From Taklimakanibacter deserti (GTDB lineage: Bacteria > Pseudomonadota > Alphaproteobacteria > Rhizobiales > Aestuariivirgaceae): a stretch of 64,000 bases of DNA. Under the pieces are notes generated by a model that was given only the letters and a program-made list of their open reading frames with translations, was not told the origin of the DNA and made no database searches. The first letter of the stretch is position 1; each line of letters starts with the position of its first letter. Both the position numbers and the translations under genes were made by a program. The stretch spans positions 1-64,000 of the forward strand of contig QORU01000015.1 of NCBI GenBank assembly GCA_003574785.1, written 5' to 3'. Below are positions 26,021 to 39,890 of this stretch, piece after piece.

Positions 26021-26023
26021 ACC

Positions 26024-26038
26024 CGGCCCTCCGGGCCG
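26024..26038 (+). terminator. Short hairpin after SDR gene
   Basis: CGGCCC-TCC-GGGCCG begins 4 bases after the SDR stop. No T-run follows, so termination strength is uncertain. Confidence 0.35.
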
Positions 26039-26139
26039 CCATGCAATGCAATATTGTCAGTCGGGCGAACCCATGTCAGATGTTGTATCCGGCGTGTCGG
26101 ACCTGCGAACAGGCCGTTGCGCCGGATGGGGAACGGGGA

Positions 26140-27996
26140 ATGTTCCGCGATCTTAGCACCAGCACAAAGCTTCTGCTTTTGTGCGGCCTTTTCATCCTTT
26201 CGCTCGCCGTAACGACCTACAGTCTCGTTACGGAGAAGCAGATAGCTATTCAATTCGCGCGAAAGGAGCTCATCGGCAGTCAGTACATTGCCGCTCTGCG
26301 CCCGACCTACGAGGTTGTCCTTGCCCAGCAGGGGGAGCGGGGGACGGTTGCCCTCATTCGCACCGACGAGCTCATCCGTGTGCTTACCTCGGGGCGGGCC
26401 GGGAGTGCCGTCGGACTGGAGACTGCCGAGCTCGAGCAGGCGCTTGTCAAGGCCTTGCGTGATCTGCCGCTGACCATGGCTGAAAGCGCCAATGGCAATG
26501 ATCCCGTGCAAAACGTGCTCGCCAAGGCGCGAAGCCTGATCGTGCGCGCCGCCGACGATTCCAACCTGACGCTCGATCCCGATATCGACAGCTACTATCT
26601 TCAGACGATCGTCACCACCAAGCTGCCGGCATGGCTTGCCCAGCTGGCCCGGATGCAGGCTCTGTTTAGCCGCTCCGTTCCATCAGGCACCTCGGTCGAG
26701 GAACACAGGGTCCGCTTTCAGGTGCTGGAAGGCGTCCTGCAGTCGCTCCTGGACGACACGGCAGAGGATCTCAAAGCGGCGTTTCGAGGGAACAACGGCG
26801 ACAGCGTGAAGAAGGCGACCGAGGGCGCGCTCTATACCGCCATCGCCGCTTCACGTTCCTATCTCGATGACTTGAAAGCCGGCATGAACGACAGCCCAGC
26901 CGACCCGGCCTCAGATCTTCTCGACCAGAGCTTTGCAAGGGCCACGAGCAGCGCAACCGCCGCGTGGACGGCCGTTCAAGGCGAGCTCGATCGTATTCTG
27001 CGGCAGCGTATCGACGGGCTGCTGGCCAGGCTGCGCGGCGGTGTCGGAGCGACGGGTGTGCTGGCAGCGCTCAGCCTTCTGGTCGCGTATCTGACCCTTC
27101 GCTATATCGTGACGCCGCTCAGGCGGCTCGAGGCGGTGGCGACAAACGTGCGCGAAACCAAGGACTATCGCCTGCGCGTCAACTATGACGGCAAGGACGA
27201 AATCGGACAGGTGGCGGTTGCGTTCAACGACATGTTGTCCGAGCTTTCCGCGACGCGTGAGCGGGAGAAGGCCGAGCAGACGGAACTGGCGCGCACCAGC
27301 AAGCTGATGACCATCGGGGCGATGACCGCCTCGATCGCCCATGAGGTCAATCAGCCGCTGGCCGCCGTCGTGACGAACAGCAACGCGGCGTTGCGCTGGC
27401 TGGCAAACCAGGAGCCCAATCTCGATGAGGCCCGCGCCGCGCTGAAGCGCATCATCGACAACGGCCATCGCGCGAGCAAGGTGATCGGCAGCATACGCGC
27501 GATGTTCAAAAAGGATCTTGCCGAACGAACCCGTTTCAATGTCAACGACCTGACGCGCGAAGTCCTGATCCTCGCTCAGGACAGTCTTCAGGCTCATCAG
27601 GTGACGCTGCGCACCGAGTTGCGTGAGGGGGTCCCCGAGGTGCTTGCCGACCGCGTGCAGCTGCAGCAGGTCCTGCTCAATTTGATCATCAACGGGGCCG
27701 AGGCAATGGCTGGGGTCACGGATCGCGAGCGCCTGTTGCAGGTGTCGTCCGCCGTCCACGATGCCGATGGGGTCGTCATAACGGTGACCGATTCGGGCAC
27801 GGGCATCGACCCCAAGGACATCAACCAGATTTTCGAGCCCTTCTATACGACGAAGGCGAGCGGGATGGGGATGGGATTGGCGATCTGCAAGTCCATTGTC
27901 GAGTCGCATGGCGGCCGGCTATGGGTGACGCCCGCAAATCCATGCGGAACGGCGTTTCACGTCGCGATGCCTGGTTATATGGTTGGCGAGGGATGA
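26140..27996 (+). CDS. Membrane sensor histidine kinase
   Basis: A 618-residue kinase. TM1 (KLLLLCGLFILSLAVTTYSL) is followed by a ~270-residue periplasmic sensor region, TM2 (GVLAALSLLVAYLTLRYI), and a HAMP linker (TPLRRLEAVATNVRETKDYR). The HisKA box holds the phospho-acceptor H401 (SIAHEVNQPLAAVVTNSNAA), and the ATPase part has NLIINGAEAM, DSGTGI and GMGMGLAICKSIVESHGG. The H-box type (HEVNQPLAAV) is that of FixL/TodS-like kinases that pair with NarL/FixJ regulators, which fits the overlapping next gene. The signal sensed is unknown. The start at 26140 has GGGGAA just upstream. Confidence 0.88.
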   Translation: MFRDLSTSTKLLLLCGLFILSLAVTTYSLVTEKQIAIQFARKELIGSQYIAALRPTYEVVLAQQGERGTVALIRTDELIRVLTSGRAGSAVGLETAELEQALVKALRDLPLTMAESANGNDPVQNVLAKARSLIVRAADDSNLTLDPDIDSYYLQTIVTTKLPAWLAQLARMQALFSRSVPSGTSVEEHRVRFQVLEGVLQSLLDDTAEDLKAAFRGNNGDSVKKATEGALYTAIAASRSYLDDLKAGMNDSPADPASDLLDQSFARATSSATAAWTAVQGELDRILRQRIDGLLARLRGGVGATGVLAALSLLVAYLTLRYIVTPLRRLEAVATNVRETKDYRLRVNYDGKDEIGQVAVAFNDMLSELSATREREKAEQTELARTSKLMTIGAMTASIAHEVNQPLAAVVTNSNAALRWLANQEPNLDEARAALKRIIDNGHRASKVIGSIRAMFKKDLAERTRFNVNDLTREVLILAQDSLQAHQVTLRTELREGVPEVLADRVQLQQVLLNLIINGAEAMAGVTDRERLLQVSSAVHDADGVVITVTDSGTGIDPKDINQIFEPFYTTKASGMGMGLAICKSIVESHGGRLWVTPANPCGTAFHVAMPGYMVGEG

Positions 27997-28634
27997 ACAA
28001 GAAAACATCGGAAACACAACCGGTCGTGTTCGTCATCGACGATGACCCGTCGGTGCGCGAGGCGCTCAGCAGCCTGTTTCGGTCCATCGGCCTGAGAGTC
28101 GAGCTGTTCGCATCGACCGCGGAGTTCCTGAGCACGGAACCATCGACCGCCCCCAGTTGCCTCGTGCTCGACGTCAGATTGCCAGGATTGAGCGGGCTCG
28201 ATTTTCAGACCGAACTGGCGAAAGCCAATATGCACATTCCCATCATATTCATAACGGGGCATGGCGATATTCCGATGACGGTCAAGGCGATGAAGGCGGG
28301 GGCGGTCGAATTCCTCACCAAGCCGTTTCGCGATCAGGATATGCTGGACGCCGTCCAGCTTGCATTTGCGAAGGATCGCCAACGCCGCGAGAGCGAGAAG
28401 ACGACGACCGACCTCAGGGCCAATTTCGAAACGCTCACCTCTCGCGAGCAAGAGGTCATGGCGCTGGTGACGGCGGGACTCATGAACAAGCAAATCGCGG
28501 CGGAAATCGGCGTCAGCGAGATTACGGTGAAGTTCCATCGCGGCAACGTCATGCGCAAGATGGGCGCTCGCTCATTCGCCGATCTGGTGAAAATGGCGGG
28601 CGTCCTCGGGGTGCGCCGTGCCAAAGCACAGTGA
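27993..28634 (+). CDS. FixJ/NarL-family response regulator
   Basis: A 213-residue DNA-binding regulator. The receiver domain has the acidic DDD cluster (residues 16-18), phospho-acceptor D60 in CLVLDVRLPGLSG and the lysine in FLTKPF. The LuxR-type HTH is near the C-terminus (LTSREQEVMALVTAGLMNKQ, ISEITVKFHR-like helix). The ATG overlaps the kinase stop (ATGA), so the two are translationally coupled and are a cognate pair. NarL-like heptamers at 28639, 29171 and 29251 are candidate targets. Confidence 0.9.
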   Translation: MNKKTSETQPVVFVIDDDPSVREALSSLFRSIGLRVELFASTAEFLSTEPSTAPSCLVLDVRLPGLSGLDFQTELAKANMHIPIIFITGHGDIPMTVKAMKAGAVEFLTKPFRDQDMLDAVQLAFAKDRQRRESEKTTTDLRANFETLTSREQEVMALVTAGLMNKQIAAEIGVSEITVKFHRGNVMRKMGARSFADLVKMAGVLGVRRAKAQ

Positions 28635-28636
28635 TT

Positions 28637-28650
28637 TATACCTATGTATA
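28637..28650. promoter_or_regulatory. TATACCTATGTATA palindrome with NarL-like heptamer
   Basis: A 14-base element, TATAC-CTAT-GTATA, directly after the response-regulator stop and about 85 bases before the single-domain receiver gene. It contains TACCTAT (28639-28645), which fits the NarL heptamer consensus TACYYMT. Candidate binding site for the adjacent regulator. Confidence 0.5.
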
Positions 28651-28734
28651 GTTTCACTCGCGCCGCCAATTGCTCAAATGTGAGGCAGTCACGGGGTCGA
28701 CCTGCGACCACGCCTTCAAAAAGGATAATCAATC

Positions 28735-29115
28735 TTGCCGGAGCCTGTCGTGATTTCGATTGTCGATGATGATGAATCCGTACGCGAAGCCACGAAAGGC
28801 CTTGTGAGGTCACTCGGTTACACCGCCGCGACATTCGAATCGGCTGAGGAATTCCTCAACTCGGAGCGCCGATACGATACGTCCTGCGTCATTGCTGACG
28901 TTCAGATGCCGGGTTTGAGCGGGGTCGAGATGCAGAGGCGCCTGATCGAGGAAGGCCACGATCTGCCCATGATATTCGTCACCGCTTTTCCCGAAGATCG
29001 GGTCCGGGCAACCGCAATGGAGGCCGGCGCGGTGGGCTTTCTGAGCAAGCCTTTCAATGAAGAGCATCTGATCGGCTGCCTCGATAGCGCGCTCGGGCGC
29101 CGCAGCGCCGACTGA
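28735..29115 (+). CDS. Single-domain response regulator (receiver only)
   Basis: A 126-residue receiver of the FixJ/NtrC-like type without an output domain. Seen: DDDES (11-15), phospho-acceptor D55 in CVIADVQMPGLSG, and FLSKPF. Stand-alone receivers act as phosphate sinks or bind partner proteins. The TTG start at 28735 has AAGGA about 9 bases upstream. It follows the kinase/regulator pair by 100 bases but has its own upstream heptamer site, so it is probably a target as well as a component of the same circuit. Confidence 0.85.
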   Translation: MPEPVVISIVDDDESVREATKGLVRSLGYTAATFESAEEFLNSERRYDTSCVIADVQMPGLSGVEMQRRLIEEGHDLPMIFVTAFPEDRVRATAMEAGAVGFLSKPFNEEHLIGCLDSALGRRSAD

Positions 29116-29166
29116 TGGACCGCCGGTTCATGCCGGCGGCCGCGGCCAAGACCCCATACAATCAGT

Positions 29167-29184
29167 CCTATACCTAAGCATAGG
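29167..29184. promoter_or_regulatory. CCTATACCTAAGCATAGG inverted repeat (NarL/FixJ-like site)
   Basis: CCTAT and ATAGG arms around ACCTAAGC, with TACCTAA at 29171-29177, a near match to TACYYMT. It lies 115 bases upstream of the small membrane peptide gene. It shares TATACCTA with 28637 and 29249. Confidence 0.5.
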
Positions 29185-29248
29185 CGTGCCCCGCACTTTC
29201 GAGGTCGCCGCTTTCCCTGCGTATCATTGAGCGATTGCGGGCCGGCGC

Positions 29249-29257
29249 TATACCTAT
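29249..29257. promoter_or_regulatory. TATACCTAT motif, third copy
   Basis: Contains TACCTAT (29251-29257), a second heptamer 80 bases after the first in the same intergenic region and 42 bases before the ATG at 29299. Confidence 0.4.
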
Positions 29258-29298
29258 CGCCAAAATTCCAAGAAGGAATTGGCTATAGGGAGGTCTTG

Positions 29299-29424
29299 AT
29301 GACCAACGTGCGGTTCTTTCATTCAGTTCTCATCGGGCTCATCGCTGCGACGTTCTTGTCCGGCGCGATGATGGTTGGGCTGGCCATGACAACCGATCCC
29401 TCCGGCTATGAGCGGTTATATTAA
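29299..29424 (+). CDS. Small membrane peptide (41 aa)
   Basis: A 41-residue peptide with a single hydrophobic helix (FFHSVLIGLIAATFLSGAMMVGLAM) and a short polar end (TTDPSGYERLY). GGGAGG lies 5 bases before the ATG, a strong ribosome site for such a short frame, and two NarL-like boxes lie upstream. I do not recognise a family. The next small frame begins one base after its stop. Confidence 0.55.
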   Translation: MTNVRFFHSVLIGLIAATFLSGAMMVGLAMTTDPSGYERLY

Positions 29425-29425
29425 G

Positions 29426-29623
29426 ATGACCCGGTCCCTCAAGCTTCACAGCTGCGCTCTTTTCCTTGCATTTTGCATGCTCACGGTGCTTCCGGTGGCT
29501 TCCCGCGCCCCCTTCATCAGCGCAGCGGATCAGCGCGGCGAATCGACAATCCACAAGAACGGGCCCACGCCCATGTGGATGGCAGGAACATCCGCCCCGG
29601 CCAAAGCGAAGGCCTGGAGCTGA
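29426..29623 (+). CDS. Small exported peptide (65 aa)
   Basis: A 65-residue frame beginning one base after the stop of the 41-residue peptide. It starts with a plausible signal peptide (MTRSLKLHSCALFLAFCM, then VLPVASRAP) and ends with a polar region rich in P, K and A. No family recognised. Tight spacing suggests translation coupled to the upstream peptide; without that the frame would be doubtful. Confidence 0.4.
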   Translation: MTRSLKLHSCALFLAFCMLTVLPVASRAPFISAADQRGESTIHKNGPTPMWMAGTSAPAKAKAWS

Positions 29624-29688
29624 CCAGCATTATGGCCGCTCCTCCTCCCCAGGGCGGCCAGCCCGGGCGTTTTCCCCTCACGCCCGCT

Positions 29689-29726
29689 AAAGCGTGATGG
29701 CGACTTAGAAAAAGCCATCACGCTTT
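29689..29726 (+). terminator. Stem-loop terminator upstream of LacI locus
   Basis: AAAGCGTGATGGC (29689-29701) pairs perfectly with GCCATCACGCTTT (29714-29726) around a 12-base loop, followed by ATCTTTGTT. It insulates the peptide genes from the LacI operon. Confidence 0.7.
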
Positions 29727-29900
29727 ATCTTTGTTCGAACCTGATCTGGCCGGTTTAAGCCCGGCCATACCCTTTGCGAGCCGAAGCTCCCATCCGGATT
29801 CGAATGACCGCGATGCGCCGGCGTCAAGCGCCGGGTGAGAAAGCTCCGAATCAACACCCAAAATTGTCCTTGCGCTTGTCACAGACATCTGAATAGACTG

Positions 29901-29925
29901 CAAAGCGCTTTGGCAAAGCGCTTTG
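29901..29925. promoter_or_regulatory. Tandem LacI-type operators
   Basis: Two perfect 12-base palindromes CAAAGCGCTTTG lie at 29901-29912 and 29914-29925, separated by one base. The central GCGC-type palindrome is typical of LacI/GalR operators. They lie 18 bases upstream of the lacI-type start codon, so autorepression of the whole operon is likely. Confidence 0.75.
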
Positions 29926-29943
29926 GTAACTTTGGGTTGAGAT

Positions 29944-30969
29944 ATGTCTGTTGTCTCAATAGCGGATGTGGCTGCTGCAGCGGGGGTCAGCCCGACGACC
30001 GTTTCGCACGCGCTCAGCGGCAAGCGGAAGGTGAGCCCTGACATCGTAAGGCGCGTCAGGGAAGCGATGGATCGCCTTGGCTACCAGCCCAGCCGCACCG
30101 CGCAGAACCTGGCGCGCGGGACCACGCGGATCCTGGCAATCGTGGTGCCGGATATCGGCAACAGCTATTTCGCCGAGCTCGCCAAGGGCGTCGAGGCGGC
30201 GGCGGTGGAGCGCGGCTACAATGTGATCCTGTGCACCACCGGCTTCGATCACGAAAGAGAGATGCAATATCTCCAGATGATCAAGTCGCGCGCGGTGGAC
30301 GGCATCATCTACTCGGCGGGCGCGCCGCCCACGAATAGCGAGCTCCACCGCCTGCTCGGCGACGTGCCGTTGGTATTCGTGGACGAAGAGATCGTGGGCA
30401 CCGACTTCACCTCGGTTGTCTCGGACAGCGAAAATGGCGCCAAGCTGGTCGCCCGTCATCTGCTCGATCTCGGTCACCGCTCCGCCTTGCTGCTCGACAT
30501 ACAGGGCAATGGCGCAACGAGCATCCGCCGTGTCGGCGGCTTTCGCGCGGCATGGCGCGCCGGCGGCGGTGGCGATTTTCCGATCGTCAAATCGGATCTC
30601 ACCGAACAAGGCGGCCGCGCCGCCGTGATCCCCTATATCGAGGCGATGCGCACCGGCGAGATCACCGCGATCTTCGCGCTCAACGATTTCATGGCGATCG
30701 GCGCCATCAATCAGCTGCGCAAGGCGGGAATAGACGTACCACGCAGTGTCTCGGTCGTGGGATTCGACGACGTCTCGGCCGGCGCCTACAGCTACCCTCC
30801 CCTCACCACGATACGCCAGAATGTTCTGGGCCTGGGTGCTGCGGCGACGGCGGCCCTCATCGACTCCCTTGATGATCGTAAGCCGCTCAGCGGCGAACAG
30901 GTGGTGCTTCCCGTCGAGCTGGTCATTCGCGAATCGACCAGCACCGCTCCGCGCCGGGAGGCGAGATAG
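29944..30969 (+). CDS. LacI/GalR-family transcriptional regulator
   Basis: A 341-residue repressor. The N-terminal HTH (VSIADVAAAAGVSPTTVSHA) and hinge helix (RTAQNLARG) are intact. The periplasmic-binding-protein-like ligand domain follows (ILAIVVPDIGNSYFAELAKG, DGIIYSAG, VSVVGFDDVSAGAYS). Effector unknown; relatives sense sugars or nucleosides. First gene of the operon with the kinase and ECF transporter and placed right behind the tandem operators. The downstream kinase gene starts one base after its stop. Confidence 0.92.
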   Translation: MSVVSIADVAAAAGVSPTTVSHALSGKRKVSPDIVRRVREAMDRLGYQPSRTAQNLARGTTRILAIVVPDIGNSYFAELAKGVEAAAVERGYNVILCTTGFDHEREMQYLQMIKSRAVDGIIYSAGAPPTNSELHRLLGDVPLVFVDEEIVGTDFTSVVSDSENGAKLVARHLLDLGHRSALLLDIQGNGATSIRRVGGFRAAWRAGGGGDFPIVKSDLTEQGGRAAVIPYIEAMRTGEITAIFALNDFMAIGAINQLRKAGIDVPRSVSVVGFDDVSAGAYSYPPLTTIRQNVLGLGAAATAALIDSLDDRKPLSGEQVVLPVELVIRESTSTAPRREAR

Positions 30970-30970
30970 C

Positions 30971-31951
30971 ATGTCGAAATATTCGGTGTTCTTCGGCGAC
31001 GTGGCGGAGGACGAGTATTACGCCGCGCCGTTCTTTCCGGCCCCCGGCGACAAGATCATCGTCAAGGCGCTGGAGCCCCAGTTCGGCGGCATGGTCGCGA
31101 ACGCCGCCTCGATTTTCGCTCATTACGGGATGGCGACTTCCTTCATCTCGCAATTGAATTCGGGCCCCTTGACCCAGAAGCTGCTCGGTCAATTGCGCGC
31201 TGCCGGACTCAACACCGATCACGTCATCTTCGACGATGCGGTTCCCGATTCCAAATGCATCATTCTCATTTCCGGCAATCAGCACATCGTCATCATTCCG
31301 AAGCTGGGCATCACCAGGTCCGAGATCACGCCCGCGATGTTCGAGCACATGGCCGGCGCGGAATTCCTCTTCACCACCTTGACCGACGCGCGGCCGTTCC
31401 GGATGCGGGACCTGACGGCGCCGGGCGTACTGTCGGCATTGCGCCGGCGCGGCACCAAGATCGTGATGGATGTGGATGTTTACAACCTGGAAAACCATCC
31501 CTCCGGCTTGATCGAATATTGCGACATCCTGTTCATGAATTCCCTCGGCAAGCGGCGCTTCACCCAGGTCGGCAATGATATAGATGCGCTTCTCGAGGCC
31601 GGCGCGACCGCGATCGTCGTGACCAAGGACAGCGACGGCTGCGATCTCCATACGGCGAAGGGCATCAGGAGCATTCCCGGCTACAAGGTCGACGTCGTCG
31701 ACGTGACCGGTGCCGGAGACACGTTCTCGAGCTCATTTCTCTATGCCTATTCGCAATCGGCAGATCTCGTGGCTGCCGCCGAATTCGCCAATGCGGCGGC
31801 GGCACTTTCCGTCGGCAAGGTCGGCGCCCGCGGCGGAATGACGACCGATAAGGCGGTGCGGGCCTTCATGAAGGAACACGGCGGTGCTCGTATGAACGAC
31901 CAACAACCAAGATCAAACCAGGGAGGAAAGGAAGACCATGTCACAGGATAA
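30971..31951 (+). CDS. PfkB-family carbohydrate/nucleoside kinase
   Basis: A 326-residue ribokinase-fold kinase. The C-terminal PfkB signature with the catalytic base is present (VDVTGAGDTFSSSF), as is an N-terminal GG motif (QFGGMVANAASIFAHYG). Family members phosphorylate sugars, sugar phosphates, nucleosides or vitamin B6, so the incoming ECF substrate may be trapped by phosphorylation. GGAGG precedes the ATG. The final ~15 residues overlap the S-component gene by 14 bases. Confidence 0.9.
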   Translation: MSKYSVFFGDVAEDEYYAAPFFPAPGDKIIVKALEPQFGGMVANAASIFAHYGMATSFISQLNSGPLTQKLLGQLRAAGLNTDHVIFDDAVPDSKCIILISGNQHIVIIPKLGITRSEITPAMFEHMAGAEFLFTTLTDARPFRMRDLTAPGVLSALRRRGTKIVMDVDVYNLENHPSGLIEYCDILFMNSLGKRRFTQVGNDIDALLEAGATAIVVTKDSDGCDLHTAKGIRSIPGYKVDVVDVTGAGDTFSSSFLYAYSQSADLVAAAEFANAAAALSVGKVGARGGMTTDKAVRAFMKEHGGARMNDQQPRSNQGGKEDHVTG

Positions 31952-32579
31952 TACTTTGTCGAAGACCATGCAGGGCTATGGGCGCCTGACGATATTCATG
32001 ATTCCCATCGGCATCGCCATCAACTTCGTGGGCGGCCAGTTCGCGCTGTTGCTGAAGCTGCCGGTCTATCTCGACAGCATCGGAACGATCCTGGTCGGCG
32101 CCACATGCGGCGGCCTGCCCGGCGCGCTGGTGGGAGCCGTCTCGAACGTCCTCAATTCGATCACGTCGCCGCCCACCATGGTGTTCGGCATCCTCAGCAT
32201 CATGTTCGGATTGCTGGCGGGGTGGCTCGCCAAGCGGGGCGTGTTCACCAGCCTGACGCTGACGCTGCTGAGCGCCATTCCCTTTGCCTTCATCGGCGGC
32301 GTGCTGGGCGCTCTGCTCACGATATGGGTGTTCGGCGGCCTCGCCGTCGGTGGCGGCGCGCTGGTGGTCGGAGCCTTGACCGCGGCCGGGTTCGACATCA
32401 ATACGGCGAACTTCCTGGCGCAAGTGCCCATGGATGTGCTCGACAAGGTCCCGACGGTTCTCGTCGTCTATGCGATCCTGAAGGGCATGCCGAAGCGGCT
32501 CTTCGCCAAGCTGCCATTGGGCTATATCTATCTCGACAAACGCTCAGCGACGACGGCCGCCCAAAAGCCGACGGCGTGA
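31938..32579 (+). CDS. ECF transporter S component (substrate-binding membrane protein)
   Basis: A 213-residue hydrophobic protein with about six helices (TIFMIPIGIAINFVGGQFAL; YLDSIGTILVGATCGGLPGA; LTLLSAIPFAFIGGVLGALL). The pattern of a Gly/Ala-rich TM1 entering FVGGQF and an extended LDSIGT loop is that of energy-coupling-factor S components, which bind the vitamin-like substrate. It is followed by the T and both A subunits, making a dedicated group I system. AGGAAAGGA precedes the start. Which substrate family it belongs to I cannot tell; it does not look like BioY or ThiT. Confidence 0.8.
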   Translation: MSQDNTLSKTMQGYGRLTIFMIPIGIAINFVGGQFALLLKLPVYLDSIGTILVGATCGGLPGALVGAVSNVLNSITSPPTMVFGILSIMFGLLAGWLAKRGVFTSLTLTLLSAIPFAFIGGVLGALLTIWVFGGLAVGGGALVVGALTAAGFDINTANFLAQVPMDVLDKVPTVLVVYAILKGMPKRLFAKLPLGYIYLDKRSATTAAQKPTA

Positions 32580-32582
32580 GCC

Positions 32583-33407
32583 ATGCAGCAAGACGCCACG
32601 AAGGAGCGTGCCGAGATCGACCGGGAGTTCGTCGAAGCTTTTCGACGCCCGGTAAGCCAGGGAAATTGGGTTCGGGATATCAACCCCCTCATCGCCTTCC
32701 TGGTGCTCGGCTGCCTCGCGATCATCCCCATCTGGATAGAAGGGCTGATCGCGCCGCTCGCGATGTGCGCGGCATTCGTGGCGATCTCGCTGTTGGCCGG
32801 CGTCGGCCGCCCCTTCATCCCGGGCTATCTGAAGCTGTTCCTGGCGGTCGGGCTGATCCTGTTCGTCCTCAGGGCGGCATTCGAGCCGGGCGATCTCGTG
32901 TTGTTCGAATTCGGCCCCTTGTCTCCGACCTGGGAAGGCGTGCAGAGCGGCGCCCGCTTCGCTCTTGTCGTGATGGTCCTGTGCGGGGCGCTGACGCTCT
33001 ATGCCGCACTGATACCGGCAAAATACCTGATGCTGGCGCTCGAGCAGCAGGGCCTGACGCCGCGCGCAACCTATGTCCTGCTGGCCTCGTTCCAGGCGAT
33101 CACCGATCTCGGAAAGAATGTCCGGGTCGTCATGGACGCGCAGAAATCACGCGGGATCGAGACGGAAGGTTCGATCCTGACGCGCAGCAAGGCGTTCTTC
33201 CCGATCATTGCGCCGGCCTTCCTGGCCGCGATGAACCAGACGGAAGAAAGAGCGGTCGCTCTCGATGCCCGCGCTTTCAGCTCCAAGACGCCGCATACGC
33301 GCCTCATATCGCTGCGCGGTCCGCGTCCGTGGGAGTTCGGGCTTTTGCTCGTCGCTGTGGCGGGTACGGTCGTCTCGATCATGGGAGCCTATCTGTCATG
33401 GCTCTAG
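32583..33407 (+). CDS. ecfT: ECF transporter T component
   Basis: A 274-residue transmembrane coupling protein. Helices surround NPLIAFLVLGCLAIIPIWIE and LYLAVGLILFVL-like segments. The two cytoplasmic coupling-helix motifs that contact the ATPases are visible as AQKSRGIE and LDARAFS, variants of the A-R-G/A motifs. It joins the S component to the two ATPases. The stop lies inside the start of the first ATPase gene (10-base overlap). The N-terminal ~30 residues are polar and longer than in many EcfT proteins. Confidence 0.88.
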   Translation: MQQDATKERAEIDREFVEAFRRPVSQGNWVRDINPLIAFLVLGCLAIIPIWIEGLIAPLAMCAAFVAISLLAGVGRPFIPGYLKLFLAVGLILFVLRAAFEPGDLVLFEFGPLSPTWEGVQSGARFALVVMVLCGALTLYAALIPAKYLMLALEQQGLTPRATYVLLASFQAITDLGKNVRVVMDAQKSRGIETEGSILTRSKAFFPIIAPAFLAAMNQTEERAVALDARAFSSKTPHTRLISLRGPRPWEFGLLLVAVAGTVVSIMGAYLSWL

Positions 33408-34246
33408 TGTCGATGAACGACGTCAGCTTCACCTATGCCTATTCCGAGCAGCCTGCCTTGCGCGACGTCTCGCTGCAGCTGGAGGAAGGCCTCCTCTATG
33501 GCGTCATCGGCACCAATGCGAGCGGCAAGACCACCCTCTGCAGCCTCATCCGCGGCCTCATTCCCCTGTTCCACCCAGGCACCTTGACGGGCAAGGTCGA
33601 GATCAGAGGACGCAATCTCCTGGATTGGGATCCTGCGCACCTCGCCCGCGCCATCGGTTGCGTATTCGAGAATCCGTTCACCCAGATCAGCGGCATCAAG
33701 GACACCATCTTCGAGGAGATCGCCTTCGGCCTGGAGAATATCGGCGTGCCGCGCGAGGAGATGATCACACGCGTGCTGGGCGTGGTCGAGCGGCTGGAAC
33801 TCCAGTCCCTCATAAAGAAGAATCCGAACGAGCTGTCCGGCGGTCAGCGCCAGAAAGTCGCGTTCGCGGCGATCGTCGCCATGGAAGCGGACTTCATCGT
33901 CATCGATGAGCCGACGTCCCAGCTCGACCCCGAGGCTTCCGATGCGGTGTTCGGCATCATCGGCGACTTGCGCAAGCAGGGCAAGTCGATCGTCCTCGTC
34001 GAGCATAAGATCGATCTGATGGCGCAGCATGCCGACCGGATCATCGTCATGAAGGACGGCAAAGTGTTGGCCGAGGGCCCGACCGGAGACATTCTCACCT
34101 CCGAGATCATGGACGTGGCGGACGTTCCCCGCCCGGAAGTGACGGATCTGGCCTTGGCGCTCAAAGGCACCGCCAAGGCCCTTCCCACCTTGCCCATCAC
34201 CCGGGCGCAGGCCTTTGACGCCATTTCACCGCGATTGTCCGGCTGA
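33398..34246 (+). CDS. ecfA1: ECF transporter ATPase A (EcfA1-like)
   Basis: A 282-residue ABC ATPase. Walker A is GTNASGKTT (G38-K44-T45), the Q-loop region is CVFENPFTQISG, signature [20 protein letters not shown], Walker B DFIVIDEPTSQLDPE, and H-loop LVEHKIDLM. The F-E-N-P Q-loop variant is typical of ECF ATPases (Q replaced by E). All catalytic motifs are intact. It pairs with the second ATPase, whose signature is degenerate. Confidence 0.9.
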   Translation: MALVSMNDVSFTYAYSEQPALRDVSLQLEEGLLYGVIGTNASGKTTLCSLIRGLIPLFHPGTLTGKVEIRGRNLLDWDPAHLARAIGCVFENPFTQISGIKDTIFEEIAFGLENIGVPREEMITRVLGVVERLELQSLIKKNPNELSGGQRQKVAFAAIVAMEADFIVIDEPTSQLDPEASDAVFGIIGDLRKQGKSIVLVEHKIDLMAQHADRIIVMKDGKVLAEGPTGDILTSEIMDVADVPRPEVTDLALALKGTAKALPTLPITRAQAFDAISPRLSG

Positions 34247-34251
34247 GCGGC

Positions 34252-35070
34252 ATGCCCATCACCTTCTCACATGTCTCCTTCGCTTACCCCAACGGCTCGC
34301 TCGCCGTGGACGACGTCAGCTTCACCGTCAATGCCGGCGAGCGGCTGGCCATTGTCGGTCAGAACGGCGCGGGCAAGACGACCACGGTCAAGCTGATGAA
34401 CGGGCTGCTCAAGCCGACCAGCGGCACCGTCATGGTCGATGGCGTGGCGACGGCGGACCGCTCGACCGCCAGCATCGCCGAAACGGTCGGCTATGTGTTC
34501 CAAAATCCGGACGACCAGATCTTCGCCAGTACCGTGCGGGCGGAAATGGAGTACATGCCCCGCTATCGCAAATGGGACGATGCGAAGCGCGACGAGCGGG
34601 TAGCGCGCGCGGCGCGGCTGGCCGGTATCGAGGCATTTTTCGACGGCAACCCCAATGACCTGCCGCTGGTCATTCGGAAATTCGTGGCGATCGCCGCCAT
34701 CCTCGTCGGCGAATGCAAATATATCGTGCTCGACGAGCCCACGGCCGGATTGGACCGTCCGGGACAGCGCCGGCTGATCGGCATGATCGACCAACTGGAG
34801 GCCGAGGGTATTTCGGTCGTCACCATAACCCATGACATGCGCTTCGTGGCCCAGGCCTTCACGCGGGTGATCGCGATGGCAAACTGCCGGATCGTCGCTG
34901 ACGGGACCTGTTCCAGCCTGTTCTCCAGCGACGGGCTTCTCAGGCAAGCCAGCATCCGCCGGCCCGAGCTCGCCCAATTGGCGAAGGATCTCGGGCTCAG
35001 CGACACCGCCTATGGGCTCAACGACGTCGCCGCCCTCATCCCCGACATGCCTCGGGCGTCGCAACGCTGA
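34252..35070 (+). CDS. ecfA2: ECF transporter ATPase A' (EcfA2-like), degenerate signature
   Basis: A 272-residue ABC ATPase. Walker A GQNGAGKTT (K42), Q-loop YVFQNPDDQIF, Walker B YIVLDEPTAGLD with catalytic E162, and H-loop TITHDMRF are intact. Instead of LSGGQ the signature region reads NPNDLPLVIRKFVAIAAIL (residues 133-151), lacking both glycines. This would disable one of the two ATP sites in the heterodimer while leaving the other intact. It starts 5 bases after the first ATPase stop. Confidence 0.88.
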   Translation: MPITFSHVSFAYPNGSLAVDDVSFTVNAGERLAIVGQNGAGKTTTVKLMNGLLKPTSGTVMVDGVATADRSTASIAETVGYVFQNPDDQIFASTVRAEMEYMPRYRKWDDAKRDERVARAARLAGIEAFFDGNPNDLPLVIRKFVAIAAILVGECKYIVLDEPTAGLDRPGQRRLIGMIDQLEAEGISVVTITHDMRFVAQAFTRVIAMANCRIVADGTCSSLFSSDGLLRQASIRRPELAQLAKDLGLSDTAYGLNDVAALIPDMPRASQR

Positions 35071-35095
35071 CCGACAACAAACAGGGTAGCCCCGC

Positions 35096-35857
35096 ATGAC
35101 CGCGAACGACTTTCTTTCGGCCTTCACCAATCCCATCCCCATATTCGCCATGCTGCATCTCAAGGGCGGATCGTCGCCTGAGAAGCTCGACATCGCGCGC
35201 CGGGAAACGGAGATCCTGTGGAGCAGCGGCATCGACGCGGTGATCGTGGAGAATTATTTCGGTTCCACCGATGATGTCGTCGCTATGTGCCAATGGCTGA
35301 AGGACAAGGCTCCGGAAGTGGTTTTCGGCGTCAACATTCTCAAGGACGACAAGCGGGCCTTCGAGGTCGCGAATGCCTTCGGGGCGCGCTTCATACAGCT
35401 CGACTCCGTCTCCGGTCATCTTACGATAGAAGCGGATGTCGAGTTCGGTGACTGGCTGAACCAGGAAAGGGCCAGGTCGGATGCCTTCGTGCTTGGCGGG
35501 GTGCGCTTCAAGTATCAGCCTTATCTGTCGGGCCGACCGCTGACCGAGGATCTTGTCATCGGAAAGTCGCGCTGCGATGCCGTTGTCGTCACCGGCGAGG
35601 GCACCGGGCTTCAGACGCCTTCCGACAAGACAGCGCAGTTCCGCGCCATTCTCGGGCCCGAATTTCCCATCGTGATCGGGGCTGGTGTCACACCGGAAAG
35701 CGCCGCGAGAGATCTCGCGAACGCCAATGCGGTCATCGTCGGCAGCTATCTCAAGGACAGTCATGTCGACACCGGTGACGTGGACAGGGATCACACTCTC
35801 CACTTCGTCCGAGCCATCCGTGCGCTCGGCGCGCAGAGAACAATTTCGAGGAATTGA
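35096..35857 (+). CDS. BtpA/SgcQ-family TIM-barrel protein
   Basis: A 253-residue protein of the BtpA/SgcQ family. It begins PIFAMLHLKGGSSPE, includes IDAVIVENYFGS and VFGVNILKDDKRAFEVANAFG, and has VVTGEGTGLQTP and PIVIGAGVTPESA near the C-terminus, phosphate-binding-like Gly loops of a (beta/alpha)8 barrel. Biochemistry is poorly defined: BtpA was linked to photosystem I stability in cyanobacteria and SgcQ to a sugar operon in E. coli. In this operon it is a candidate lyase, phosphorylase or epimerase for the phosphorylated substrate; that is inference. Confidence 0.85.
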   Translation: MTANDFLSAFTNPIPIFAMLHLKGGSSPEKLDIARRETEILWSSGIDAVIVENYFGSTDDVVAMCQWLKDKAPEVVFGVNILKDDKRAFEVANAFGARFIQLDSVSGHLTIEADVEFGDWLNQERARSDAFVLGGVRFKYQPYLSGRPLTEDLVIGKSRCDAVVVTGEGTGLQTPSDKTAQFRAILGPEFPIVIGAGVTPESAARDLANANAVIVGSYLKDSHVDTGDVDRDHTLHFVRAIRALGAQRTISRN

Positions 35858-35868
35858 GGGGCACAGAT

Positions 35869-36540
35869 ATGGCAGCAGACATCAGCAAAGACGCACCACC
35901 GGCCGGCCTCATCGAGGCGCAGAGATTGGCGATAAGGATCGCGGAGGCCATCGCGGCAGATGCGCGTCCCGGCGAAACCGAAATAGAGGTGCGCGATCGC
36001 GCTGACCGGTATGTGCGTGAATTCGGCGGCACGGCCCTATGGACGCCGACCACGATCGGCTTCGGGATCGGAACGCTCAGCTGCTTTCCGACCGATCGGC
36101 CAAGCACTCGCCAGCTGTGGAACCTGGACCTCGGCATCATCGACATTCATCCGATCACCAAGGACGGCTGGTGGGGCGATTGCACGCGAACATTCCAGCG
36201 AGGCGACAATGTCGCCCAGCGAAAGGCCCTGGAAACGGTGGAAGCGATTCACGAAGCTGTCCTTGCTTCGGTGCGGCCCGGCATGCGGGCCTGCGATCTC
36301 TTCGCCGTCTTCAAGGCGCGGCTGCAGCAGACGCCCTATCTTTTGCTGGATCGCCTGTCGAATATCGGCCACTCGCTGAGCGCCCATTCATCCTACGATG
36401 CCGGCTATATAGACGAGTGGAACGAGACTCCGATGACCGGGGCCTGGGCGATCGAGCCCTTCATCGGTAATCATCTCTATGGGGTGAAGAAGGAGGACGT
36501 CGTGTGGTTCGGGCCAACGGCCTGCACCCTCGTCAGGTAA
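35869..36540 (+). CDS. M24-family metallohydrolase (aminopeptidase P/creatinase fold)
   Basis: A 223-residue pita-bread-fold protein containing only the catalytic domain. The five metal ligands can be placed: D87 (LDLG), D104 (GDCTRTF), H168 (IGHS), E196 (AIEPF) and E209 (KKED). M24 enzymes cleave Xaa-Pro or N-terminal Met bonds, or hydrolyse C-N bonds in creatine and ectoine derivatives. GAGGGG 8 bases upstream favours the ATG at 35869; a TTG at 35854 overlaps the previous stop. Last gene of the ECF operon. Confidence 0.85.
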   Translation: MAADISKDAPPAGLIEAQRLAIRIAEAIAADARPGETEIEVRDRADRYVREFGGTALWTPTTIGFGIGTLSCFPTDRPSTRQLWNLDLGIIDIHPITKDGWWGDCTRTFQRGDNVAQRKALETVEAIHEAVLASVRPGMRACDLFAVFKARLQQTPYLLLDRLSNIGHSLSAHSSYDAGYIDEWNETPMTGAWAIEPFIGNHLYGVKKEDVVWFGPTACTLVR

Positions 36541-36578
36541 GGGCCTCCCGCGGGAAACCCAGGATCGGCGCCGCTCCG

Positions 36579-36626
36579 CTGTCTCTTCCTTGCTGCGATG
36601 CTCCGCGCTATGTGACAGGCGTGTGC
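36579..36626 (+). pseudogene. Remnant of an SDR gene C-terminus
   Basis: In the gap before the HisD-like gene, the frame at 36570 reads LSLPCCDAPRYVTGVC, the tail motif of classical SDRs (compare FLCSDASRYVTGVC of the SDR ending at 26020). At DNA level 36604-36627 matches 25962-25985 at 23 of 24 bases. There is no complete gene around it, so this is a deletion scar of a former SDR gene. Confidence 0.5.
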
Positions 36627-36649
36627 CACGCTCCATTCTTGGATTTCCC

Positions 36650-37975
36650 ATGACCCGAACCGTCAACTTTCACGAGCTTTCGAAGCTGTCGCCGGCCGAG
36701 CGCCGGAAGCTGCTCCAGCGCACCGAGGCCGATCTCTCGTCCTATGAGGAGAAGGTCAAGGCGATCATCGATGCGGTGCGCCGGGAGGGCGATGAGGCGC
36801 TGGCCCGCTTCGCGCGTGATTTCGACAAGGCGCAGGTCGAAGCCTCCGAGATCGCCGCGACGGAAGCGGATTTCGCCCGCGCCGAGAAGACGCTCGCTTC
36901 CGAGGTCAAGGCGGCGATGGACTATGCCGCCGTCCAGATCCGCAAATTCCATGAGGACCAGAAGCCGGAAGAGATGTGGCTCTCCGAAATGCGGCCCGGC
37001 GCTTTTGCCGGCGACCGCATGCGCGCCATCCCGTCCGCCGCCTGCTATGTCCCACGCGGAAAAGGGGCATTTCCCTCCGTAGCGCTGATGACCTCGATCC
37101 CGGCCAAGGTCGCGGGCGTCAAGGACCTGATCATCGTGACGCCGCCCGGCCCCGACGGGAAGATCGACGATGCGACTTTGGTGGCGGCGCGCATGGCGGG
37201 TGTCGGCGGCGTGTTCAAGGCGGGCGGCGCGCAAGCCATTGCCGCGGTCGCCTATGGCACGGAGACAATACCGAAAGTGGCAAAGGTGATCGGTCCCGGC
37301 AGTCCGTGGGTGGCGGCGGCCAAGCGGCAGGTGAGCCATGTGATCGACACCGGCACGCCCGCCGGGCCCAGCGAACTGATCGTGTTCGCCGACGATACGA
37401 TCGACGGCCGGCTTGCCGCCCTCGATCTCCTGATCGAGAGCGAGCATGGGCCCGACAGCTCCGTCTATCTCGTGACCTGGAGCCGGCGTGTCGCCGAGGA
37501 GGCGCGGGCGGCGATCCCGCTTTATTGGGAGAAGATGAGCGCCCAGCGTTCGGGCTTCTCATCGACCGTGCTTGGGGGTCCGATCGGCGGCATCGTGCTG
37601 GCGCGCGATGAGGACGAGGCGATCGCCTTCGTCAATGACTATGCGCCCGAGCATCTCGAGGTCTTGGCCAAGGAGCCTTTCCAATATCTCGGCCGCCTCG
37701 ATCATGCGGGCGAGATCCTTTTGGGCGAGCACACGCCGACGACACTCGGCAATTTCGTGCTCGGGCCCAATCACGTCCTGCCGACATCGGGCTGGGCCAG
37801 GACCGCCTCGCCCGTCTCGGTCTTCGATTTCATGAAGCGCACCTCGATCGCCTATGTGACGGGGAAGGCCTATCCGGAGCTGGCGAAGAACGCGAAAGTT
37901 CTCGCGACCTATGAAGGCTTCGACGGCCATGCCAATGCCGTCTCGGAATTGCGGGAGGAGATTCTCAAGAAATAA
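36650..37975 (+). CDS. hisD: Histidinol dehydrogenase-family protein (HisD paralogue)
   Basis: A 441-residue NAD-dependent dehydrogenase of the HisD fold. The catalytic Glu-His pair is in YAPEHLEVL, the NHVLPTSGWA region and the final GHANAV histidine are kept, and AGPSELIVFAD is conserved. Compared with the E. coli enzyme as I recall it, two zinc ligands differ: Q259 becomes E (LIESEHGPDSS) and D360 becomes N (GNFVLGPNHVLP). With an ABC transporter downstream and no other his genes, oxidation of a different alcohol is plausible. The start at 36650 is chosen by family length; its ribosome site is weak. Confidence 0.85.
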   Translation: MTRTVNFHELSKLSPAERRKLLQRTEADLSSYEEKVKAIIDAVRREGDEALARFARDFDKAQVEASEIAATEADFARAEKTLASEVKAAMDYAAVQIRKFHEDQKPEEMWLSEMRPGAFAGDRMRAIPSAACYVPRGKGAFPSVALMTSIPAKVAGVKDLIIVTPPGPDGKIDDATLVAARMAGVGGVFKAGGAQAIAAVAYGTETIPKVAKVIGPGSPWVAAAKRQVSHVIDTGTPAGPSELIVFADDTIDGRLAALDLLIESEHGPDSSVYLVTWSRRVAEEARAAIPLYWEKMSAQRSGFSSTVLGGPIGGIVLARDEDEAIAFVNDYAPEHLEVLAKEPFQYLGRLDHAGEILLGEHTPTTLGNFVLGPNHVLPTSGWARTASPVSVFDFMKRTSIAYVTGKAYPELAKNAKVLATYEGFDGHANAVSELREEILKK

Positions 37976-37977
37976 TC

Positions 37978-38002
37978 CTCTCTCCCGCGTCGGGGGCGAG
38001 GG
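37978..38002 (+). terminator. GC-rich hairpin after HisD-like gene
   Basis: CCTCTCTCCCG and CGGGGGCGAGG pair around a short loop right after the stop codon. It belongs to the recurrent family and may separate the dehydrogenase from the ABC genes. Confidence 0.4.
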
Positions 38003-38083
38003 TATGACATTGACGCCCGCTGAGGTTTGTCGTTTGATCCCGCGCGCAGATCGATCGGAAAAACAACAGGAGAGGGTACGTCC

Positions 38084-39091
38084 ATGGTCTCATTTCTCAA
38101 TCGTCGCGACATCATCAAGGCGGGGGCAGTCGCCGCCTTCGCCGGCGCCGGCCTGCGCGCCGCGCATGCCCAGGACATTCCGTCCAAGCCCGAGGCAGGT
38201 GCCGTAAAAATGGGCATCGAGCCCTGGCTCGGCTACGGCCAATGGCACATCGCCGCCAAGAAGGACCTGTTCAAGGCGCAAGGCCTCGAAAGCGTCGAGG
38301 TCATCAATTTCAACACCGATGCCGACATCAATGCGGCGCTCGCCGCGGGCCAGCTCAATTGCGGCAACATCGCCACCCATACGGCGATGAATTTCATCGC
38401 TGCCGGCCTGCCGCTCAAGATCGTGGCCCTGCTCGATGTCTCGAAAACCGCGGATGCGATCGTCTCGGACGGCTCGGTCACCGACATCAAGGGGCTCAAG
38501 GGCAAGCAGGTCGCCTATGAGGAAGGCACGACCAGCGACATTCTCTTGAACTATGCGCTGAGCCAGAACGGCATGACGATCGCCGATATCGAGAAGGTGC
38601 CGATGCCGGCCTCCGATGCGGGCTCGGCGCTGATCGCCGGCAAGGTGCCGGTCGCCGTCACTTATGAGCCCTATCTGACGCTCGCCATGCAGCAGAATCC
38701 CAAGGTGAAGATGATCTACAGCGCCGGCGAGAATCCGGGACTGATCTCCGACGTCTTCGTGGTGCGCGACGAGTTCCTGGCCGAGAAGCCGGGCCAGATC
38801 GTCGCTCTGCTCAAGGCCTGGGATGCGGCTTTGGCAGATTACCGCAAGGATACGGCGGGCGGCCGCGCCATCATCTCGGCGGCAGTGGGGGCGAAGCCGG
38901 AAGAGCTCGCCACGGCTTTCGACGGCGTCGTTTTTTATTCGCTGGCCGAGAACAAGACCGAGATGGCGAATTTCACCGGCAAGGTCATCCCCGAGGTGCA
39001 CAAGGCGGCGCGCACCGCCGGCATCCTGCAGAAGGATGTCGATCTTTCGAGCGCCATCGATCCAAGGTTCGTGGATGCCGCGACCAAGTAA
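38084..39091 (+). CDS. ABC substrate-binding protein (TauA/SsuA/NMT1 type)
   Basis: A 335-residue periplasmic protein with a twin-arginine signal (NRRDIIKAGAVAAFAG, cleavage after AHA). The mature part shows the TauA/SsuA pattern: MGIEPWLGYGQWHIAAKKDL, ADINAALAAGQLNCGNI, LKGKQVAYEEGTTSDILL, and VPVAVTYEPYL. Such proteins bind sulfonates, nitrate, pyrimidines or polyamines. GGAGAGGG lies 9 bases upstream. The stop overlaps the permease start by 17 bases. Confidence 0.88.
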   Translation: MVSFLNRRDIIKAGAVAAFAGAGLRAAHAQDIPSKPEAGAVKMGIEPWLGYGQWHIAAKKDLFKAQGLESVEVINFNTDADINAALAAGQLNCGNIATHTAMNFIAAGLPLKIVALLDVSKTADAIVSDGSVTDIKGLKGKQVAYEEGTTSDILLNYALSQNGMTIADIEKVPMPASDAGSALIAGKVPVAVTYEPYLTLAMQQNPKVKMIYSAGENPGLISDVFVVRDEFLAEKPGQIVALLKAWDAALADYRKDTAGGRAIISAAVGAKPEELATAFDGVVFYSLAENKTEMANFTGKVIPEVHKAARTAGILQKDVDLSSAIDPRFVDAATK

Positions 39092-39890
39092 GGCAAGCGG
39101 CTTCGGCCGCTTGTTCACTCTCGGCGGACGCATCAGGACGGTGGAGTTCCTCGGCATCGCTGCCGCGGTCTTCGCCGTGCTCGGCATCCTGTGGTTCGCC
39201 AGCACCGCCGCAGGATTGGTGCGGCCGCTCTTTTTGCCGTCGCCCGGCCAGGTCGTGGCGCGGCTCGGCGAGCTCTGGGCATCGGGCCAGCTCCTCGCCG
39301 ATATGGGCATCAGCATCTATCGCATCACGCTGGGCTTCCTCATCTCGACCGCCATCGCTCTGCCGATCGGCATTCTCATCGGCAGCTATCGCGGCTGGGA
39401 GGCGGCGATCGAGCCTTTCGTCGATTTCATCCGCTATATGCCGGTCGTCGCCTTCGTGCCGCTCACCATCCTGTGGACCGGCACCGGCGATGCGCAGAAA
39501 TTCCTCATCATCTTCATCGGCACCTTCTTCCAGCAGGTGCTCCTGGTGATGGACAATGTGAAGGGGGTGCCGCGCGACTTCATCAATCTCGGCCGCACGC
39601 TGGAAATGCCGGAATGGCGCATCCTCAAGGGCATCGTGCTCCCGTCCGCCATGCCGGCGATCTGGGATTCGATGCGCATCAGCCTCGGCTGGGCCTGGAC
39701 CTGGCTCGTGGTCGCCGAGCTCGTCGCCGCCACGTCGGGCTTGGGTTATCGCATCACCACCGCGCAGCGCTTCTTCCAGACCGATCTCATCTTCGGCTAT
39801 CTCCTCATTCTTGGGCTTTTGGGCCTCTTGACCGACCAGGCGATGAAATATCTGGGCCGCCGGCTGTTCCGCTATCTCGAGGTCAGGTGA
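39075..39890 (+). CDS. ABC permease (TauC/SsuC type)
   Basis: A 271-residue inner-membrane permease with six helices. It contains the family patterns LPSPGQVVARLGELW, GFLISTAIALPIGILIGSYR and the EAA-like loop VPRDFINLGRTLEMPEWRIL. The start lies inside the end of the binding-protein gene, and its stop overlaps the ATPase start (TGATG), so all three are coupled. Confidence 0.9.
   Translation: MPRPSKASGFGRLFTLGGRIRTVEFLGIAAAVFAVLGILWFASTAAGLVRPLFLPSPGQVVARLGELWASGQLLADMGISIYRITLGFLISTAIALPIGILIGSYRGWEAAIEPFVDFIRYMPVVAFVPLTILWTGTGDAQKFLIIFIGTFFQQVLLVMDNVKGVPRDFINLGRTLEMPEWRILKGIVLPSAMPAIWDSMRISLGWAWTWLVVAELVAATSGLGYRITTAQRFFQTDLIFGYLLILGLLGLLTDQAMKYLGRRLFRYLEVR

Follow-up and report, generated by a model that had tools for sequence, protein, structure and literature searches.

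A LacI-linked ECF transporter operon of Taklimakanibacter deserti with PfkB, BtpA and M24 genes, and a possible kinase-first route for a nucleoside-like compound

The 64,000-nucleotide stretch of Taklimakanibacter deserti DNA analyzed here (contig QORU01000015.1, positions 1 to 64,000, hereafter the window) carries an operon in which the genes of an energy-coupling factor (ECF) transporter are combined with a LacI-family regulator, a PfkB-family kinase, a BtpA/SgcQ-family TIM barrel and an M24 metallohydrolase. Our preferred reading, to which we give a probability of roughly 0.43, is that the operon is repressed by LacI and serves to scavenge an N-glycosyl compound of nucleoside-like type, where the kinase acts first and BtpA subsequently acts on the C1-N bond. 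Among the explanations considered, a kinase-first pathway on a sugar-nitrogen bond, with a nucleoside-like substrate in the window, is the most likely. The gene families are known; within the reach of our searches, their combination is new, and so is the evidence that assigns BtpA to a breakdown module in which a kinase acts first.

In the proposed pathway, the ECF proteins S, T, A and A' would import the compound intact, and PfkB would phosphorylate its sugar, probably at the primary hydroxyl. The BtpA barrel would bind the phosphosugar and cut or rearrange the C1-N bond, opening or isomerising the phosphosugar there and giving either a free amine and a phosphosugar or an open-chain carbinolamine. 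M24 may hydrolyse the released or ring-opened nitrogen compound, a slot that an AllA-like protein may fill elsewhere, and the phosphosugar would pass to central metabolism. BtpA would then take, after phosphorylation, the role that nucleoside hydrolase has before it in sister systems and that FrlB has in fructoselysine breakdown. The BtpA reaction is placed at the C-N bond because nucleosides, N-glycosides and ketosamines all have a sugar-nitrogen bond. From the evidence below we infer the class of substrate, what PfkB, BtpA and M24 each catalyse and the order of the steps.

Operon organization and conservation

The first-pass annotation of this DNA described eight co-directional genes with overlaps or gaps of at most 26 bases, which is borne out by the gene calls and spacing. 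The genes follow the order LacI, PfkB, S, T, A, A', BtpA and M24 on the + strand and span 29944-36540 (Table 1). LacI and PfkB are one base apart, PfkB and S overlap by 14 bases, S and T are separated by 3 bases, and T and A overlap by 10 bases. Gaps of 5, 25 and 11 bases follow between A and A', A' and BtpA, and BtpA and M24 (the last counted from ATG 35869), the 25-base gap being the largest in the operon. For M24, ATG 35869 is a more likely start than TTG 35854, which overlaps BtpA by 4 bases. As its S, T and pair of ATPases are all encoded within the operon, the transporter is of group I, and the gene-family matches uphold the earlier description of such an ECF system linked to LacI and equipped with enzymes of its own.

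The complete set is found in the same order in two Rhizobiales loci (L001 and L002; Rhizobiales bacterium Y(2018), Aestuariivirga) at 80-88% identity, and in eight actinobacterial loci (L004-L007, L009, L012, L017 and L020) at 48-76% identity, and the arrangement is therefore not due to chance. In L003, M24 is the only gene of the set that is absent.

Table 1. Features of the operon and its control region in the window.
Feature	Position	Strand	Evidence
Pair of LacI-type operators in tandem: perfect 12-bp palindromes CAAAGCGCTTTG (central CpG) at a spacing of 13 bp	29901..29925	+	Pattern scan
LacI-family repressor, RbsR-like	29944..30969	+	Pfam LacI 55 bits, Peripla_BP_3 103.6 bits; NCBIfam best RbsR 243.5 bits, below cut-off 382
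PfkB-family kinase	30971..31951	+	Pfam PfkB 117.1 bits; GAGD motif; no NCBIfam cut-off reached
ECF S component, CD3073-like family	31938..32579	+	NCBIfam NF045596 (CD3073 family) 105.9 bits, below equivalog cut-off 180; Pfam PF12822 25.8 bits, cut-off 30.7
ECF T component, CbiQ family	32583..33407	+	Pfam CbiQ 81.2 bits
ECF ATPase A	33398..34246	+	NCBIfam ECF_ATPase_1 211.5 bits, cut-off 315
ECF ATPase A'	34252..35070	+	NCBIfam ECF_ATPase_2 203.9 bits, cut-off 330
BtpA/SgcQ-family TIM barrel, phosphosugar-enzyme type	35096..35857	+	Pfam BtpA (PF03437) 74.1 bits, gathering cut-off 30
Stand-alone M24 metallohydrolase domain	35869..36540 (alternative start TTG 35854)	+	Pfam Peptidase_M24 73.9 bits

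Kinase and importer complementarity at BtpA loci

A BtpA-centred scan of genome contigs was used to compare gene neighbourhoods in the best 80 of 236 loci, ranked by similarity to BtpA. Locus classes were assigned with hidden Markov models made from the same 80 loci and mechanical reading frames, and neighbours were counted within 6 kb. The set includes near-duplicates (L001/L002, L005-L007, L061/L069 and L067/L072) and short contigs (4100 bases for L057, 8079 for L026 and 5541 for L038).

Importers of the ECF type (S + T) were found in 20 loci, amino-acid-type ATP-binding cassette (ABC) importers with a substrate-binding protein (SBP) of family 3 in 19, FrlA-type permeases in five and mannose/sorbose-type phosphotransferase systems (PTS) in 10, and the other 26 loci have no recognised importer. 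PfkB is present in 20/20 of the ECF loci, 18/19 of the amino-acid ABC loci, 5/5 of the FrlA loci, 1/10 of the PTS loci and 8/26 of the loci with no recognised importer. A kinase accompanies BtpA in 43 of 44 loci with a non-phosphorylating importer versus one of 10 with a PTS (Fisher p 1.8e-8, where kinship between loci is ignored). The single kinase-less non-PTS locus is L057, on its short contig, and the kinase still counted in the PTS locus L068 is 41% identical to E. coli RbsK and lies beside a nucleoside hydrolase. Such complementarity is expected if BtpA needs a phosphorylated substrate that is supplied by either PfkB or the PTS, and judging from these neighbourhoods BtpA probably acts on an imported, phosphorylated sugar compound. 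The earlier proposal of import followed by phosphorylation of a glycosyl-type compound is supported.

The BtpA tree does not separate the importer types, and ECF systems occur in Bacilli, Clostridia and Actinomycetota. If the BtpA subfamily is the new class of enzymes considered below, kinase, BtpA and partner would form a portable module that works with at least four kinds of importer in several phyla. Two of the PTS loci, L044 and L048 (approximately 6.7-12.8 kb), come from Enterobacteriaceae. Their BtpA operons have a PTS of the mannose/sorbose type, lack PfkB within 6 kb and also contain a gene that clusters with a sigma-54 activator with a PRD domain (Pfam identity from the L030 member).

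The S family and the nature of the substrate

The neighbours of related S genes provide information on the substrate. The S-centred sample comprises 44 loci taken from a longer set of S matches, of which four are close and 40 distant (<45% identity). Within the fetched stretches, an inosine-uridine nucleoside hydrolase is found in 31 of the 40 distant loci, BtpA in 0/40 and neither gene in nine. In all 33 S loci having a hydrolase, at least one is on the same strand as S, and it lies within 540 bases in 26 of them (Pfam identity was checked in L085, L087 and L088), and many S loci also have LacI and ribokinase. One of the close S genes with BtpA nearby, L132, has a nucleoside hydrolase too and is probably the L020 record of the BtpA scan, and in the fourth close locus, L098, where S is 61% identical, a nucleoside hydrolase is present and BtpA is absent. 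By Pfam, none of the window's eight genes is a nucleoside hydrolase, the enzyme that is present in sister S systems. Based on these relatives, the S family suggests a nucleoside-like substrate for the window operon. At 89% identity, S is found in one of 297 genomes from the order of G002, namely G002 itself, and the other matches are at 29-36%.

The sister systems are most clearly seen in Bacillales clusters (L088, L137, L140, L141, L148 and L149, with S at approximately 7 kb), where LacI, nucleoside hydrolase, S and T are followed by ribokinase. These clusters are predicted to be ECF nucleoside importers with a CD3073-like S component. They resemble the window operon in their S family (34-37% identical), ECF layout, LacI and PfkB-family kinase, and their two ATPase genes A and A' were checked in L087 and L088 only. 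Unlike the window operon, they have a nucleoside hydrolase in place of BtpA, and BtpA and M24 were not found in the fetched stretches. In a Buttiauxella genome, an S gene of the same family adjoins genes for a PCC-domain protein, T and A (L086:9132-10175). Our literature search for CD3073 found nothing relevant.

ECF S components of solved structure bind vitamins, and the operon might accordingly be suspected to import a vitamin or cofactor precursor which the enzymes salvage. The AlphaFold2 (AF2) model of S, with a predicted local distance difference test (pLDDT) score of 79.8, is in line with this in that its 13 top-ranking Foldseek matches comprise chains of BioY, RibU, ThiT and FolT together with an entry whose title says no more than transporter. 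These matches have probabilities of 0.95-1.00 and E values of 0.02-0.44, with none at E <=0.001. Given these E values and the pLDDT, support for the ECF S fold in the model is moderate, and the matches speak for the fold only. Moreover, no vitamin biosynthesis enzyme is found among nine Pfam-scanned proteins, Rfam returned zero families at gathering score and hence no riboswitch across 28600-38100, and sister S genes lie near nucleoside hydrolases, all of which makes vitamin salvage very improbable. The first-pass annotation had considered that the S relatives might turn out to be those of a known vitamin, with BtpA and M24 mostly absent; this has not been seen so far, since BtpA is nearby in three of the four close S loci. 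If the nucleoside-like reading holds, the role of this ECF transporter is catabolic, as opposed to the uptake of a vitamin.

The window kinase contains VTGAGDTF, in which we take GAGD to be the PfkB motif, and its best relatives in the Protein Data Bank (PDB) are sulfofructose kinase and ribokinase. With 99.5 bits against a cut-off of 299.65, it falls below the NCBIfam ribokinase equivalog. In the pseudouridine pathway (PsuK and PsuG) the kinase also acts first and the bond is cleaved on the phosphate. PsuK aligns with the window kinase over 43 residues only, and pseudouridine was set aside as a candidate after no PsuG homologue was found at E 1e-4 across the 80 BtpA loci. Another ECF system for nucleoside- or base-type compounds with dedicated enzymes, as here, is queuosine salvage by QueT/QrtT (PMC11130926, in the portion of the text available). 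Queuosine was likewise rejected; no queuosine-named family is among the Pfam and NCBIfam matches listed (the best 25 in two of the tables), and BtpA does not appear in the available portion of PMC11130926.

Fructoselysine-type loci and glycated amines

The substrate could instead be an Amadori-type glycated amine, i.e., a fructosyl- or ribulosyl-amino acid or peptide, with PfkB acting like FrlD, BtpA in place of FrlB, and M24 or AllA on the carbinolamine or peptide part. We regard this as rather unlikely for the window, even if several observations point that way. The E. coli K-12 frl operon (frlA frlB frlC frlD frlR) also combines an importer, a PfkB-family kinase and an enzyme acting on the phosphorylated conjugate, and other BtpA loci share its FrlA permease type and its FrlR-like GntR-UTRA regulators, the latter in 36 of 80. 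The amino-acid-type importers of 19 loci fit as well, as does the BtpA of the FrlA locus L029, which groups with the PTS loci L044 and L048 (97/92). In five of the 80 loci, BtpA is accompanied by a permease that shares 53-56% identity with FrlA of E. coli. The three that were scanned reach 538-572 bits against NCBIfam FrlA versus 184-202 for the next family, below the cut-off of 800. FrlB and FrlC homologues adjoin BtpA in L053.

These five loci differ from a comparison set of eight loci found from FrlA itself. All eight FrlA-centred loci have an FrlD-like gene (174-279 bits) and an FrlB-like gene, the latter at a weak 38-78 bits where other SIS proteins are possible, and in L121 FrlB is on the opposite strand approximately 5 kb off. 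In the five FrlA-BtpA loci, FrlB and FrlC have no match at E 0.01, and FrlD reaches 12-26 bits in three of them. A distant BtpA-family gene is present in one FrlA-centred locus, L120, which is again consistent with glycated amines. On the other hand, the BtpA-linked FrlA proteins form a single clade of their own, the S family of the window points to nucleosides, and the window kinase is nearer to E. coli ribokinase (58.5 bits) than to FrlD (32.7 bits). Unlike the frl operon, the window's eight genes do not include FrlA, FrlB, FrlC or FrlR and have BtpA, an ECF importer and LacI instead; no SIS deglycase (FrlB or a relative) is found among them.

A conserved family of 380-390 residues, cluster 14, lies near BtpA and FrlA (L013:12554-13699; L040:10936-12105) and is fused to the C-terminus of BtpA in L029:9998-11938. 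It was considered as a xylose-isomerase-type, FrlC-like barrel, which was dropped since Pfam, NCBIfam and a PDB profile search were empty and FrlC had no match in the five FrlA loci.

The BtpA protein

BtpA falls well below the stricter TIGR00259 (71.3 bits versus a cut-off of 153.4). Its subfamily is recognised by the motifs VENYFG, QLDSVxGH and GGVRFKYQ and has an enzyme-like set of near-invariant polar residues. The tree of BtpA proteins places the window together with L001 and L002 in a set of 13 rows that is actinobacterial in all other members (100/99), and with L008 and L009 they form an inner set of five rows (97/87), which suggests horizontal transfer between Actinomycetota and Rhizobiales.

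The AF2 model of BtpA (pLDDT 94.1) has KDPGal/KDPG aldolase (2-keto-3-deoxy-6-phosphogalactonate/-gluconate), TrpA and ribulose-phosphate epimerase as nearest folds, and PDB sequence searches gave weak barrel matches only (LBCATS-a 26.4 bits, tryptophan synthase alpha approximately 21, IMPDH 19). BtpA could thus be an aldolase, isomerase or epimerase on a nitrogen-free phosphosugar, which would make this a conventional operon for the catabolism of a sugar or sugar acid, apart from its unusual importer. The aldolases as closest folds, the nearby epimerase, and the presence of LacI and PfkB, which are typical of sugar operons, agree with this. Amino-acid-type importers, the FrlA-type permease and the nucleoside hydrolase neighbours of the S family do not fit such an operon, and AllA and M24 families act on C-N bonds; we therefore consider it improbable.

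Compared with the E. coli sgc cluster, the window operon shares a BtpA-family protein, SgcQ, which is there found with PTS genes and with SgcX, annotated with a Zn-dependent exopeptidase domain. SgcQ differs in being 24% identical over 237 residues and in lacking many of the near-invariant residues of the window subfamily, among them E52, D103, R137 and K139. The cyanobacterial BtpA, which is linked to thylakoids and tetrapyrrole synthesis, is presumably in the same Pfam family, PF03437. The window protein scores 56.5 bits against the model for photosystem I biogenesis BtpA (NF045918), versus a cut-off of 400. PMC11433714 mentions the BtpA family in the text available, and the title of its reference 96 ties cyanobacterial BtpA to the first step of tetrapyrrole synthesis. 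The earlier statement that BtpA/SgcQ has no clear reaction thus stands for the window subfamily and, going by that title, less so for the cyanobacterial protein. BtpA might alternatively act as a partner, which its cyanobacterial relative possibly does in tetrapyrrole synthesis, with M24 or PfkB performing the chemistry. Given the low score against the cyanobacterial model, the enzyme-like polar residues and the regular pairing of BtpA with a phosphorylating step, this is the least probable of the alternatives. In literature searches, many matches to the name BtpA are an unrelated Brucella protein or chemicals.

M24 and AllA-like partners

Aligned to dipeptidase PepE, the M24 protein keeps Asp, Asp, His, Glu and Glu, which are presumably the metal ligands. 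M24 occurs in 15 of the 80 BtpA loci, and 10 of these are among the 11 LacI-ECF loci. An AllA-like gene occurs in 28 of the 80, and the two never co-occur. Among the 44 loci with a non-PTS importer, M24 is found in 11, AllA in 27 and neither in six. M24 is mainly of one clade, and the AllA-like gene is present instead in others. This pattern fits M24 and the AllA-like gene filling one slot, without being proof of it. AllA splits the carbinolamine ureidoglycolate, and P0088 is a natural fusion of BtpA with an AllA-like domain (ureidoglycolate lyase family). As M24 is found in 15 of 80 loci and never alongside the AllA-like gene, it does not belong to the core of BtpA systems. The earlier view of M24 as part of the pathway is thereby weakened, and the proposed amide hydrolysis is a guess.

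More tentatively than the operon reading itself, the BtpA subfamily could be a new class of enzymes that split or rearrange C-N bonds on phosphorylated sugar conjugates, unrelated to nucleoside hydrolases and SIS deglycases. In ECF systems it would take the place of a nucleoside hydrolase, in FrlA systems that of FrlB, and the AllA-like or M24 partner would resolve the carbinolamine.

In L050:10736-13917, an ECF-BtpA operon, genes for an amidohydrolase-superfamily protein, an M20 deacylase/peptidase and M24 are consecutive. This row is perhaps for the stepwise opening of an amide or ureide, and it can also be read in favour of a glycated amine. A GATase1-like gene (PF07090) lies 3' of BtpA in L009, L012, L017 and L020 (e.g., L020:6272-7135; Pfam on the L020 gene only).

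Points against the kinase-first reading

Several findings weigh against the reading that BtpA acts on the sugar-nitrogen bond of a phosphorylated nucleoside-like compound. The nucleoside context of the S family and the Amadori context of FrlA point to different compounds. Since the BtpA-linked FrlA proteins are a separate clade, their substrate may be a fructoselysine relative or another compound. The S family may also reach beyond nucleosides, given the nine distant S loci having neither nucleoside hydrolase nor BtpA. The window kinase itself scores higher against ribokinase than against nucleoside kinase (52.9 bits). KDPGal/KDPG aldolases, the nearest folds of BtpA, cut C-C bonds. Furthermore, with PfkB in only eight of the 26 loci that have no recognised importer, either BtpA works outside the module too or the scan missed parts. 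Finally, in the literature found, no reaction is reported for BtpA/SgcQ outside cyanobacteria, and no substrate, product or activity for any member of the window subfamily.

In titles and abstract starts, to which the literature search was mostly confined, BtpA is not linked to ECF, PfkB, AllA or Amadori compounds, and the earlier remark that no described pathway has this set of genes agrees with what was found there. Our analysis adds to that annotation the tandem operators, the nucleoside hydrolase neighbours of the S family, the exchange of importers around the BtpA module and the connection to FrlA. The neighbour data for BtpA reduce the compounds worth assaying with the kinase and BtpA to nucleosides, N-glycosides and ketosamines. 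If the reading is correct, it describes a further bacterial route for glycated amines or nucleoside-like compounds, which bears on nitrogen in the gut and in soil.

The LacI control region

The first-pass annotation placed the start of the system at 29901, which is the first base of the tandem operator immediately 5' of lacI. The operator pattern has two matches at <=1 mismatch versus 0.23 expected, and two of 100 shuffles reach two. Nine of 12 related LacI loci (Rhizobiales and Actinomycetota) contain, close to the called lacI start, a mismatch-free copy of a 25-bp composite, CAAAGCGNTTTGSCAAAGCGNTTTG, an ambiguity pattern composed after inspection of the loci; in these nine, the best of 200 shuffles has 6 mismatches. 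In the remaining loci, the composite is one base short (L012), degenerate (L009) or reduced to a single variant palindrome (L008). LacI would bind this tandem operator, leading to repression and induction of the operon. In a sigma-70 scan, the + strand had no promoter-like site and the - strand had one, versus 1.3 expected, and terminator-like sites were near chance (six versus 4.6 expected), including one 3' of M24 at 36566-36581. Neither scan is therefore used as evidence.

Neighbouring genes

Downstream, at 36650-40687, a histidinol dehydrogenase homologue is followed by genes for an NMT1-type binding protein, a permease and an ATPase. We considered counting these hisD and ABC genes into the operon and decided against it, as hisD, the binding protein and the permease are unmatched in L001 and L002, where the ATPase is 38-39% identical. 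Upstream, frames at 25948-29115 resemble, by eye, a sensor histidine kinase and two response regulators, with no tblastn match in L001 and L002. The frames at 25948 and 36590 have similar translated leaders, MLRCxALCDxRVP. This shared leader is perhaps a short intergenic repeat, and a repeat search at <=3 mismatches found a copy at 36594 only.

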